Shown here one piece after another: positions 680 to 63,223 of a DNA stretch of 64,000 nt. This DNA comes from Maylandia zebra. Its lineage: Eukaryota; Chordata; Actinopteri; Cichliformes; Cichlidae. Positions within the stretch are counted from its first letter, which is position 1. The number at the start of each line of letters is the position of its first letter. Below the pieces are notes generated by a model. The model made no database searches. It had not been told where the DNA came from and saw only the letters and a program-made list of their open reading frames with translations. The translations under genes and the position numbers were made by a program. The stretch is taken from NCBI RefSeq assembly GCF_041146795.1, contig NC_135176.1:25355286-25419285 (forward strand), given 5' to 3'.

Positions 680-3600
680 GAAGCGCTCCTGTGCTGGAGA
701 AGAAGCGCAAAAGAAAACCCACTCAGAAGATCCTGGAATACTGCCTGGAGGCCGAGGCATCAACAGGCCTCAAGAAGAAGGTACAGCATGTTTAATGAGT
801 GTACATTTATTCGTTTGGTGTAATGTATTTGTATGTGCCAGCTTATAAGATAGAGCTGTACATTTTATTTAGCGCAAAAAAATCCATTTACCTTCATAAA
901 AGCATTACATCAGATTAGATTTTACTGAGTTAGCAATTATAATTAGAAAGAAAATCTTAGTTTCCTCCTATAGTATCAGTAGTACAGTGCCATGAAAAAG
1001 TATTTGCACATTTGTCATACTTAAATGTTTCAGATCATCAAACAGATTTTAATATTAGACAAAGATTGACATCTGTCAGTCTGGAAAGGATTACAGAGAT
1101 ATTTCCGAGGCTTTGGGACTCTGGCAAACCACAGTGAGAGCCACAGATGAAGGAAACTTGGAACAGTAATGAACCTTCCCGGAGGTGGTCTACCAAGACA
1201 CTAATGACTCCCCACGGATGTCACAAAAGAACCTGGAACATCATCTAAGGAACTGCGGGACTAACTTGGCTCAGTTAACCCTTTAAAGCCGGTCGGAGCG
1301 GGCACGCTCCGTTTTGCCTATTTTTAAATCCCTGTAGAACCGGAACTAGCGCAATAATTTTTTTTGCATATGAAACCGGAGGAGTTGTACTTACATCTTA
1401 TGCCATCAGCTTGTCCTAGGTCACGGTTTCCTTCCACATATAGCTTTGCAAATATTGCATAAAAAGCGCTTGCAGGAACAAAAACATAATATTCCAGAAA
1501 CACGCTTTGCCGATCCGATCAGCTGTTCGTAACACTTCCCACATTGAAACAGACGTCAGCGCGAACGATCGCATGTACGCTATTTCCTGCCCGAAATCGG
1601 AAGTGACGTCATTTTCGTGGAAAATGTAGTTTTTTACTTGTAAGCCTTAAAAGCCTATACTGGTGTTTTTAGAAGTCATGTTTGACTTTATGCTTTTCTG
1701 AATAGTTTCTGGGATGCTTAGAACTCGAATTGCACTGCTGGAAATAGTTTATTTTGATACACATGCTGTTTTCTTTGCAAATTTGCATCATAGGATTGTT
1801 TTTTCGTTTTTCCTGCAGTATATAAAAATTGCTGTATCTCAAAAATAAAACTATGAAGACACTCAAAATAAATTTCCTGTTGTTGTAAACTATTTTTTGC
1901 AACTTTTTTGTATTTAAAATTTTGAGGGATAAACCTCTTAAATTTCTCCAAGTAGAAATATATGTAAAAAACAAAAAACAAAAACGATTTTCAATTTTTT
2001 TGTAGTTTATTGCACTTTTTTGCAATTAATGTAGTTACTATGGACTTAATGCATACATATTATTAAAATATGGGCTATAACAGTTGTATTGATGTATAGC
2101 AACTTGAAATGCTCCCAAAAATGGCTCTACAACATGTTAAAATATAAAGTAAGCTCTGGCAGACTTGGTTCTATGGTAGGTCTTAAAGGGTTAAGGTCAA
2201 AGATCTTATGCAAATATAAGAAAGAGACTGGGTAAAAATGGCATCAATGGGAGAGTTCAAGAGACACAGAAAACCACTGCTGACTAAACAGAACATAAAA
2301 GCTTATGACTCATTAAAAGTACTCTTATTATACAGGAGGATGATCCAAAACATGGCAGCAAGAAATCCTCTGAATGGCCAAAAAAGAAATAAAATGAAGG
2401 TTTTGGAGTACCTGAGTGAGTTCAGACTTTTATCCGATTGAGATACTTTGGCCTGACCTTAAACAGACCATTCATGGAATTGGAATTAAAATTCTGCAAA
2501 GAAGAGTGGACCAAAACTCCACAGTGATCTGAAAGCCTGATTGATAGTTATCACAAAGTACTTTACAAAGTAGTTCTTGCTGCCAAGAGTGGCACAACCA
2601 CTTGTTAAGGGTTATTACTTTTTCACACAGGACTTAGCAGGTTTGGATAACTTTTTCTCCTTAATAAAAGAAATAATCATTTAAAAACTGTTACTCCATG
2701 ACTCCAAGACAAAATTAGTGGTCAAAGCTCTCATTATGTTATCCACGGTCAGATTTAGTCACTCCTGCACCAGCAAGACATTGTTTTTATTGCAAGCTGT
2801 AAAGCAAATAAGTATAAGGAAAATTTTCAAAAATGCACCAGTGGGAATGGAAAGTTCCTTGGGTGATCTACTAACACTAACACTTTGTGTATGAACACTA
2901 ATTCATACACAAAGATGCAGTCGGTTTATTGCGATAATTGTGAGCAGCATGGATTAGTGACTTAGAAACAAGCGCACCTGATGAGGGAGTGCAAGGGAGC
3001 GTTTAAAGCCCTAACAAAAATGAATCGTTGTAAGTTTGGATTTTACGGGTTTTTCTCTCTGAAAACAGTGTGGCAGTTACGATAAATGAGAGGAGGCTGA
3101 AGGGAGAGAATGCTTTACTATAACCGTGAACTCATTTGTTAGAAATAGGTGGGAACTGTGTGAGGTCCTGAGGCCTGAATCTCAGTTTGGAGTATAGGAT
3201 TTTTCTGCACACCATTCAGGTCAGCTGTAGCGCAGATTTCAGGTTTATAGGGTGGAATAGTTTCTCCTCTGGATCAATCCTGCCTCCACCTGAGCTGTGA
3301 GAGATATCTCTGATAATACAAAGTGGAGAGAGTTGTAAGCAGCATGTAAGAACTGATGATCTGATGGTCAGACAGATGTCTTTACCTTCCTAAATTCAGT
3401 CTGATGCTTGGTCATAGTTGATGTTCAGTTATAGTCAAATAATAGAAACTTGCCACTGTGTTGAAAAAACCTTAGAAACACCAATGTGCATGTAGGCAAA
3501 TGCATGACCGATGCACTGTGCTACTTAAATAAACAGCACTGCACCACGGGCATTAGAAACATTAGAATCCTTTTTCAGTCCAATAAAAACAACGTAGGGA

Positions 3601-6600
3601 TGTTTGATTGGCCTCCGGTCACAAACATAAGCACCGGTTGAGTGTTTCCAGTCATTCCAGCATTTAAGAGATGATGGAGGGTTAATCCTCCCACACGTGT
3701 TTAGTTAAGATGTTTAGTTAAGCGCATCTAAACACGCATTATGTTAAGAGCTTCTTAAAGTCTGGGGCTTTCAAATAATGAAGTGTATTTCATTTTATGT
3801 AAGCTTTGCTTTGAGTTATAAATAACAAACATAAGTATAAATAATACAAGTAAAGGATTTATGCTGTGGAGATGAAGCTGAGACTATGAGATGATCAGAT
3901 TATTTCAGATTATTGTGTAGTTAAAAAACAAACAAACAGATAAACAATTTTATAGAGCCAAAAGTGCCTTTAAAGATTAAAAGTGTTTGTTTTTAATTGA
4001 ATTTATTTGTTTTTAAATATTTTATTTTAAACATCACTCACCTTACATTCAATCTCAGCTAAGAAAAGAAGTCAGTGACTTTCAAAAACAAAATAAAACT
4101 TTGACAGCGTGTAGTTCTTCCCTGATCCTCTGTGTATCACTCCTAAGAATGTCTTTAGAACTGATATCGTGTAGATGAGCACCCCCAGTTTCCCCAGCAA
4201 GAGATGCGTGGAGCCTCTACTTGAGGTTGAAGTTTCTCTCAGAGCTCCCTCGTGGTCTTGTTCAGAAGTGAGACAAGACGGAGATGGAGATCAACAGATG
4301 GACTGGTGTATAAATCCAGTTTTCTGTGGTGAAGCGAGAGCAGATTAAGATCACAAATACAAGTGTTGAAAAGGCTCTGAAGAGAGGCTGGGCTCACCTT
4401 TAGAGACAGGACTCAATCACTCAGGAGGGGCTCAGGGTACAGCTGTTGATTCCTCCACATCGAAATGAGCCAGTTGAGTTGGATCAGCCATGTGACTAGG
4501 ATGCCTCCAGGACATCTCCTAGATTAAGTGTTTTGGGCTTGTCCTACATGCTGGAGGGATTATGTCTCTCCACTGGCTTGGAATCTTTGTGTCCCCCGAG
4601 AAGAGCTGGAGGAGGTGTGGGCATCTCAGACTGATGCCCTTTCCAACCTGGCTGGAATAAACGATGGATGGATGGGCATGGATGGAGGATTCTAGCCTTA
4701 AAATGCTTTTGAGAATTGCAGATAAGAGCTACAAACAAAGCAAAAAAAGAAACTTTTTTTTGTTTGATAGACTAAAACAATGTTGGTTTAACTGCAGTCA
4801 TTTTTGAAAGTGTTCCTCTTTGTTCCAGGTCAAAACACTGAAGACTAATCCACCTCCAACTCCTCAATCTGGTCAGTGAGTTTTCGTAAAGCCTTCTAAA
4901 TTACACTGTAGTGTGCGGTATCTCATCCAGGACTACTTTTATTTAACTTAACAGTAGGTAGCAGGCCTATATCTGTATTAGAGGCAGGCTTATAAAGACA
5001 TGCTTGATCAGAGGATTATTACTCATCTGCCACTTTTTCTTCTTCTCCTCCACTTGCCCAGTTTTCAACTCTTTGGGAATCACATTAATAGTGTAAAAAT
5101 ACAATTTTATGTCTGTGTTATCTTTGGTATTTTCCATAGTTTTTATTAAAGAAATGAGAACAAATAGTGTTTTTGTGACAGACCGCTAGTAACAAAGTGT
5201 CCAGAAATACAATTTAGAATTAGTGCTTTACTAAATTATCTGTTATATGTCGACACGACACACATCATCCCTTGAGTTTTGTATATTTATGCTTGACTGA
5301 CTCATAGGTCAGTGTTAGTGATGGCTTAGAAAACAAAACAAACAAAACATGAGTGGAAAAGCAGCAGATTTAGAAAGGAGAAAATATAATAGGTAATTAA
5401 ATGTTGTAAATGAAATAAAATAATCATTGTGTACATGTTAAATCTATAAAGTGTAATTACATTATTTGTTCAGTGGGTTTCAAACATTTTATGACACAGA
5501 AGAAGAAGAAGTTAACATAAAAAAAAATTCCAAGTCACCAGATTTTCTTTTTTCCTTGTAAATTAAATTTGGGAAAGCAGCCAACTAAAATACGCTCTGA
5601 GGAGTCCAGATGAATTTACAGCCAAGCGTATTTAATCTGCACAGTTAATGTAATTTAATATGATGCTAAGAGGAAGTCCTTGTTGTTATGAGTTGAAAAT
5701 CTTGAAAAGCTAGTTTTTCTGTCTTACTGTTTCAAATATGGTTTTCTTCCACATAGACTGCTCAGCACCACCCCTAAAATCAAAGAGTAAGCCACTTCCA
5801 GCATCAGAGTCCACACCGGCAACGACCTCTGACCTCTGTACACCCACACCTTTGGTTCAGACCAGCACTCCTGCACCTTCTGCTCCAGAGCAGTCTTCGC
5901 CAGAACCCGGACAGGAGGAGACGGCACCAGCCGATGTCGACGATCCTCAACCGGACGACGGTAAAGCCGAGGACATCAAAAAGGACGGAGCAGAGTCAGA
6001 GGTTGGTCAGCTTTACTTTTTTACGTACAGCAATAATTAAAATTGTTGCTATGCAACAGCAAAGTCCTGCTTTGTCTCCTCAGGGTGAACCATCCAGCCT
6101 GGACAACAGTTTCTGCTCCATGAAGGACGACTTGTCACTGTGTGACGACTCACTTTTACCTACGAGGAAGATCATAGGGGACCGAGGAGGCCCGGCTTCC
6201 ATGAAGGAGAACATATGTCAGGTGAGCTTTCAGCAGTTTAGTGACAAAAAGATCCCTAGAAATGTGTCCAGAAGCTCCATAAGAAAAGGTTTCATTTTAG
6301 CAGTGATAGATTAGAACGCTACTTGTGTCTTTACAAGAAGCTCTACAGCGACTTCTCTGCTGCTGTATTCAAACATTTTATCACAGCTTCCATTTCTGTT
6401 CAGTTCATTACTTTATGGTCAGATCTAAACAACAGTTAGCAGACATTAGATGTTTTCCTCTAAAAACTCTGAAGCCTTCATATCCACCTCGCAAACCATG
6501 CATACATGAGACGTAAAGTTCCCTCTCTCTGAGTCATTCAAGTTATGCTATGATCTCTGCTCAGGTGTGTGAGAAGACCGGGGAGCTGCTGCTCTGTGAG

Positions 6601-62986: not shown

Positions 62987-63185
62987 CTGACATATCGGCT
63001 AACATTAAAGAGAAACATAAATTAGCTAACATTAACTGTTTTCAAATTAGTTAGTCAATGAGTTAGTTAAGATGGTTGTAGTATTATTTTTGTGTGAGTG
63101 TTGTTAACTGAGTGTAACAAACTTGCGTTAGTGTCAGTATGTTAGCATTTAAACAAGCTAATGTAAAATGGGTAATATGATTGGC

Positions 63186-63223
63186 TTGTCTTATTATGTG
63201 CCTATTGCCACATAATAAGACAA
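63186..63223. repeat. Snap-back palindrome, 15-bp perfect arms
   Basis: Arms 63186-63200 and 63209-63223 are exact reverse complements around an 8-nt loop. Confidence 0.9.

Follow-up and report, generated by a model that had tools for sequence, protein, structure and literature searches.

The stretch of Maylandia zebra DNA analyzed here (hereafter the window; 64 kb at C10:25355286-25419285, the genome comprising 962 Mb on 63 contigs) carries gene fragments, dispersed repeats and more short hairpins than chance predicts, that is, near-perfect inverted repeats with very short spacers. Ten of its 34 listed stop-to-stop open reading frames (ORFs) of at least 100 aa were compared with Pfam, yielding matches to parts of an NSD methyltransferase, to phosphoglycerate kinase and to reverse transcriptase; an exon resembling cytochrome b5 scored under its Pfam cut-off, and three of the ten ORFs had no Pfam match, not counting one beside that exon. 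The repeat names Tc1, L2 and hAT used below are putative assignments.

Hairpins in the window

An exhaustive scan of the window for perfect inverted repeats with arms of at least 12 bp and loops of at most 9 nt found 12 hairpins, against means of 0.02-0.12 and a maximum of 3 in Markov controls modeled on the window itself (order 0, 1, 2, 3 or 5, with 100 sequences generated per order), which rules out chance as their cause. A preliminary description of the window had listed nine perfect hairpins and set their rough expectation at 0.04; all nine were recovered at their listed positions, and the excess that it claimed is borne out. Two of its entries need adjustment: the hairpin placed at 43619 with 16-bp arms starts at 43618 with 17-bp arms, and the one placed at 44631 with 12-bp arms starts at 44629 with 14-bp arms. 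An imperfect palindrome of about 40 bp, reported at 60943, likewise exists and has a perfect 24-bp core (60960-61008) within arms of ~41 bp that match except for a 2-nt indel. The scan added two AT-rich hairpins of low complexity, one at 7094-7122 (14-bp arms, loop 1) and one at 62855-62885 (12-bp arms, loop 7).

The arms of 10 of the 12 hairpins are complex (nine pass a second complexity filter), and low complexity can be rejected as an explanation for the main set. Complex arms of at least 12 bp numbered nine at loops of 0-9 nt and one at loops of 10-19 nt, then 0.67 per ten loop lengths over 20-49 nt and 0.16-0.23 past 50 nt, so that the excess drops about nine-fold once the loop exceeds 9 nt. 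When mismatches and gaps were allowed, the window held 14 complex inverted repeats and no mirror repeats at a score of at least 24 (22 versus 5 at a score of at least 20), while eight order-3 Markov replicates averaged 0.125 imperfect hairpins at the higher cut-off. Single-strand DNA folding of five stretches gave z-scores of -5.8 to -17.3. The hairpins were also said to be densest from 43 to 63 kb, and seven of nine do fall there once the pair described next is merged (p=0.0075, for boundaries picked post hoc).

The most informative pair lies inside a miniature inverted-repeat transposable element (MITE) on the plus strand at 44526-44762. Both termini of the element are present (CAGGGGTG...CACCCCTG), and it is flanked by an 8-bp target duplication, TCTTAAAG, at 44518-44525 and 44763-44770; judged from these ends and the duplication, it is of hAT type. 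Within it the scan and a comparison of copies identified two abutting hairpins: A-A' at 44629-44660 (14-bp arms, loop 4), in which the left arm is ancestral and the right arm new, and B'-B at 44661-44702 (20-bp arms, loop 2), in which the right arm is ancestral and the left new. The comparison drew on a genome search in which 40 of 1240 candidate places were scored, the window's own included (82 alignment rows, both strands); 12 of the 39 other scored places were chosen as long and high-scoring. The double hairpin is missing from all 12 of these copies, none of which has a complex arm of at least 12 bp.

At the corresponding site, all 12 other copies share a sequence of about 25 nt, bounded by GAAGT and by ATCATTTG or variants of the latter. 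The window's element instead has 35 nt, made up of GGGTA, the reverse complement of the left flank and the reverse complement of the right flank, so that ~25 nt were lost and 35 nt gained. A private variant, TATGTC, which reads CATGTC in 12 of 12 other copies, is present in both arms of the window's element; GTATTG is in both arms too, and 11 of the 12 others differ from it (the copy L053 has it). Since the arms carry the window's own variants, the copying was local, and it does not predate these variants unless correction of the arms followed. That the other copies lack the stem and have, in eight of 12 cases, only a 4-bp fold-back seed (ATCA-TT-TGAT) shows that the stem was created at this element rather than corrected there. 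This comparison of copies establishes local inverted copying (snap-back) as the maker of the hairpins at 44629-44702. The scar combines a deletion, an inverted flank copy and microhomology at a seed; a break presumably occurred there. It is also the one locus at which an ancestral sequence lacking the new arm, and a new arm copied locally with private variants, could be demonstrated.

The palindrome at 60943 has a different history. Scanning, folding and genome search place it in a repeat of about 120 bp (60944-61063), in which the ~41-bp arms (60944-61026) are followed by a second stem. A 191-bp query spanning it (60900-61090) has 16 other identical copies in the genome; of the 40 places scored, 22, counting the window, have the repeat together with its L2-like flank, whereas in the remaining 18 the flank is missing and the repeat, or just its second half, is 84-95% identical. 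These dispersed copies, 16 of them identical, rule out a local origin, and the palindrome is a dispersed repeat riding in a recently amplified unit. The intronless ORF at 59316-60545, which would encode a coiled-coil-like protein of 409 aa without Pfam match, is likewise recently amplified. At its own 40 scored places the ORF has 21 full-length copies (itself included) at 91-100% identity, and another 12 copies match its first 932 bases; the copies are on C11, C1, C13, C21 and C42. The L2-like block and the hairpin repeat lie close to several of them.

Four other hairpins are single-copy: 9260-9296 (14-bp arms, loop 9) and 43618-43652 (17-bp arms, loop 1), both characterized by the scan and genome search, and 53023-53089 (33-bp perfect arms, loop 1) and 57307-57340 (14-bp arms, loop 6, with an extra 8-bp outer stem), for both of which folding was added. 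None of the four has a second match in the 962-Mb genome under a search that skips very common words; the reverse-strand hits seen at 53023 and 43618 are self-matches of these palindromes. These four presumably arose by local inverted copying. The same origin may be supposed for the hairpins at 2883-2914 (13-bp arms, loop 6) and 63186-63223 (15-bp arms, loop 8), found by the exhaustive scan, and for that at 62822-62849 (12-bp arms, loop 4; scan and genome search), which lies in what we take to be a Tc1 relic. The sole other genome match of the last is a 46-bp relative at 87% identity that lacks the hairpin; beyond those 46 bp the alignment is gapped, and both arms pair loosely with the relative.

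These copy numbers bear on whether transposition made the hairpins. The preliminary description had argued that most lack target duplications, and the direct repeat adjoining the hairpin is indeed 0-1 nt in 9 of 9 hairpin units checked (the AT-rich pair left out); with an offset of up to 3 nt permitted, a 3-nt direct repeat appears at one hairpin only, 43618. With such adjoining repeats, no single MITE family with target duplications stands behind the hairpins, and one shared transposon family is ruled out by the lack of target duplications together with the four single-copy hairpins. Alternatively, the hairpins could be tiny terminal-inverted-repeat transposons, MITEs cut down to their two ends. 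This is true in kind for the dispersed repeat at 60944-61063, which is present in multiple copies. Against it elsewhere, the adjoining direct repeats are 0-1 nt, the hairpins at 53023, 57307, 43618 and 9260 have no other match in a genome search that skips very common words, and the MITE pair lies inside its element and is absent from the other copies fetched. As a general origin, we consider transposons of this kind a decidedly unlikely one.

Snap-back reads written into the assembly could also produce such structures, and stretches reading N do lie just right of the window (4500 N in L038, 500 N in L039). Against such an artefact of assembly or library, which the preliminary description had kept in view, the MITE is complete around its scar, with both termini and the 8-bp duplication; the scar substitutes for 25 nt instead of only adding an arm; the 60943 palindrome is identical at 16 other places; and hairpins are present on either side of the window. 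An artefact is very improbable as a general cause, and unlikely in particular at the MITE, where the element is whole.

Hairpin density in and around the window

The window was compared with its flanks (six neighboring pieces, 55 kb without N) and with a genome sample of 20 pieces of 10 kb taken at round-number positions on ten contigs, of which one (L033) is all N, leaving 190 kb. Complex hairpins (arms of at least 12 bp, loops of at most 9 nt) number 10 in the window, five in the flanks and two in the sample, the last with overlapping centers merged (five unmerged, arms 12-99). At a score of at least 28 with mismatches allowed, the densities are 156, 109 and 16 per Mb, respectively. The window is richer in hairpins than the sampled genome, a small sample. 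Its density is not that expected from composition, while for the genome at large the density comes from the sample. Perfect 8-bp arms occur at 216-219 per Mb in window, flanks and sample alike, so composition does not account for the difference. Arms of 9 bp reach 47 per Mb in the sample, 73 in the flanks and 125 in the window, and arms of 10-11 bp reach 58, 36 and 47 per Mb; the difference is thus clear only from 12 bp upward.

Its hairpins being the reason for which the window was selected, the least biased test is that of the flanks against the sample (one-sided p=0.008). With the dispersed 60943 palindrome removed and the MITE pair merged, the window retains eight events in 64 kb (p=0.0004 versus the sample). 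Rank tests on 10-kb blocks, in which neighboring blocks are non-independent, gave, over five score cut-offs, p-values of 0.0012-0.022 when flanks and window were combined and of 0.003-0.10 when the flanks were taken by themselves; at a score of at least 28, the flanks and six full window blocks differ from the sample at p=0.0012. Pieces at 25.22 and 25.62 Mb contain zero and two hairpins, respectively. The piece at 25.62 Mb of C10, 0.2 Mb past the window, includes a perfect loopless palindrome whose arms are 21 bp long (L044:3599-3640).

Taken together, these counts make it seem that about 25.33-25.45 Mb holds several times more scars than the sampled genome. We tentatively suggest, at somewhat short of an even chance, that template switching or repair by snap-back is concentrated in one region of at least 120 kb, perhaps 300 kb, where hairpin scars form at about ten times the frequency seen elsewhere in this genome, and that part of it is two-ended snap-back joining of broken ends. 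It is also quite conceivable, if on balance doubtful, that there is no hot spot, the hairpins being evenly spread and the 190-kb sample low by chance. The sample positions were round numbers picked by hand, one piece in 20 was all N and just two hairpins were counted, or five when unmerged; the window was selected because it looked rich; the neighboring piece at 25.22 Mb has none; and the flanks alone are not clearly different at the lowest cut-offs (p=0.10 at score 22, 0.08 at 24). Such an even spread has to contend with the flank excess, in sequence that the preliminary description did not cover, with the corrected window count, with the rank test at a score of at least 28 and with the equal frequency of 8-bp arms. 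An unusually active process, as first proposed, thus gains regional support from a small genome sample but is not proven.

Other features of the window

At its gathering score Rfam has a single match in the window, a tRNA on the minus strand at 37287-37397 (50.4 bits), where no hairpin lies. The match spans 111 bases and exceeds a plain tRNA, the extra length perhaps coming from an intron or an insertion. A 33-bp perfect inverted repeat (61767-61799 and 62126-62158) with a separation of 326 nt perhaps marks the ends of a small element. In 60 bp (8602-8661) between two ORFs with NSD domains, one at 7.4 kb and the other at 12.9 kb, lie TGCCACAGAGTC, a 10-base partial repeat of it and its inverted copy.

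Searches among viruses and prokaryotes returned little. Viral contigs scanned with the hairpin arms and with motifs of the MITE and L2 yielded 0, 0, 13, 0 and 0 records, and blastn of the window against the 13 viral records (L001-L013) found nothing at E 1e-3. A scan of prokaryote genomes gave one bacterial record, taken as chance. There was no match of 44400-44900 against plasmids or of 60800-61300 against phages, and the letters of the repeats were not found in the paper text in which they were sought.

Discussion

Our data suggest that most of the hairpins quite likely stem from a recurrent process, either template switching over short distances or the repair of breaks by snap-back. A 3' end would fold on itself or change strand at a tiny matching stretch, copy 12-33 nt of the sequence from which it has just come, and then resume or be joined. 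At the MITE, the order A-A'-B'-B stands where the original sequence had 25 nt; if both ends of a single break each copied back and were then joined, in a manner like polymerase-theta end joining, exactly this order would result, and two replication template switches would offer another route. Both copyings probably took place at the ends of one break. The enzyme, and the choice between break repair and replication as the route, are matters of inference. Local inverted copying, the origin given in the preliminary description, thus holds for the MITE pair and fits the four single-copy hairpins, but fails for the dispersed repeat at 60943.

The hairpins resemble the short-range template switches described in great apes (PMC7954356) and invoked for the origin of hairpins (PMC8794818). 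Shared features are inverted repeats, short spacers and an adjacent source, and at the single decidable locus here one arm is ancestral. Walker et al. reported 4017 template switch events in three apes (PMC7954356); the copied length in their gold-standard set has a median of 12 and a maximum of 128, which the arms of 12-33 nt seen here fit, and the majority event types yield single inverted repeats. The window differs in its density, which in and beside it is above that of the genome sample, and in the double event of the MITE scar, with both flanks inverted. Polymerase theta snap-back copying, as described in PMC4912351 and PMC5068794, shares with the MITE scar a deletion with reverse-complement copying of the flank, a short filler and a seed of a few bases; it differs in that the arms here exceed the 7-bp median, and for our scar the enzyme and the break would be conjectural. 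hAT-type MITEs with inverted halves share with our element the 8-bp target duplication and the terminal inverted repeats, whereas its hairpins are foreign to the family, being absent from the 12 other copies.

By another measure the window looks unremarkable: its inverted repeat (IR) density of 6.8-7.7 IR bp per kb stands beside a published metazoan mean of 4.55 (PMC13155455). According to that study, most eukaryotic IRs are AT-rich repeats, so the published density is no measure of complex hairpins.

Older imperfect stems might instead have been kept perfect by repeated template switching between their arms (quasipalindrome correction), a mechanism described in PMC8794818. Nine of the 14 detected hairpins have a perfect core, compared with 29-46% predicted by a simulation of steady birth and neutral decay, and the relative of 62822 aligns loosely with both arms. 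This surplus is statistically weak (binomial tails of 0.008, 0.06 and 0.21 for p=0.3, 0.4 and 0.5, respectively), and the stem at the MITE was made there, given that the other copies have none. We regard correction as an unlikely general account; correction between arms, fast loss or a burst in the recent past may nonetheless be at work too. If perfect hairpins are taken as unmutated, with neutrality and no correction assumed, roughly one hairpin would form for every 210 substitutions in the window (excluding 60943), for every 380 in the flanks and for every 2,400 in the sample.

Besides the surplus of perfect cores, several observations weigh against recurrent snap-back copying or its regional concentration. 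Snap-back is described as a minor share of polymerase-theta insertions in worms (PMC5068794), and the reported median insertion of 7 bp (PMC4912351) is below the arm lengths found here. The 60943 palindrome is dispersed, hence the ten complex hairpins are not one class. Only one locus, with two hairpins, is polarized, and the other single hairpins have no relative; at 62822, where there is one, correction of an older stem is just as possible as the gain of an arm. The regional rank tests are uneven over the five score cut-offs, and the genome sample, at 190 kb, is small.

Although the mechanism is of a known kind, the regional excess would be the new part; a literature search covering titles and the starts of abstracts, which is no proof of absence, found no report of hairpin-scar hot spots in fish among the papers listed. 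The A-A'-B'-B scar, set beside 12 hairpin-free outgroup copies, cleanly documents how the two ends of what was probably a single break were copied, and the many other copies of such elements could serve for measuring the snap-back process. If the regional excess holds, this class of mutation would have hot spots large enough to be related on the map to replication timing, breaks or chromatin. Hairpins that arise in a single step supply raw material for new microRNAs, the stems of which template switching can account for (PMC8794818), and for fragile sites.

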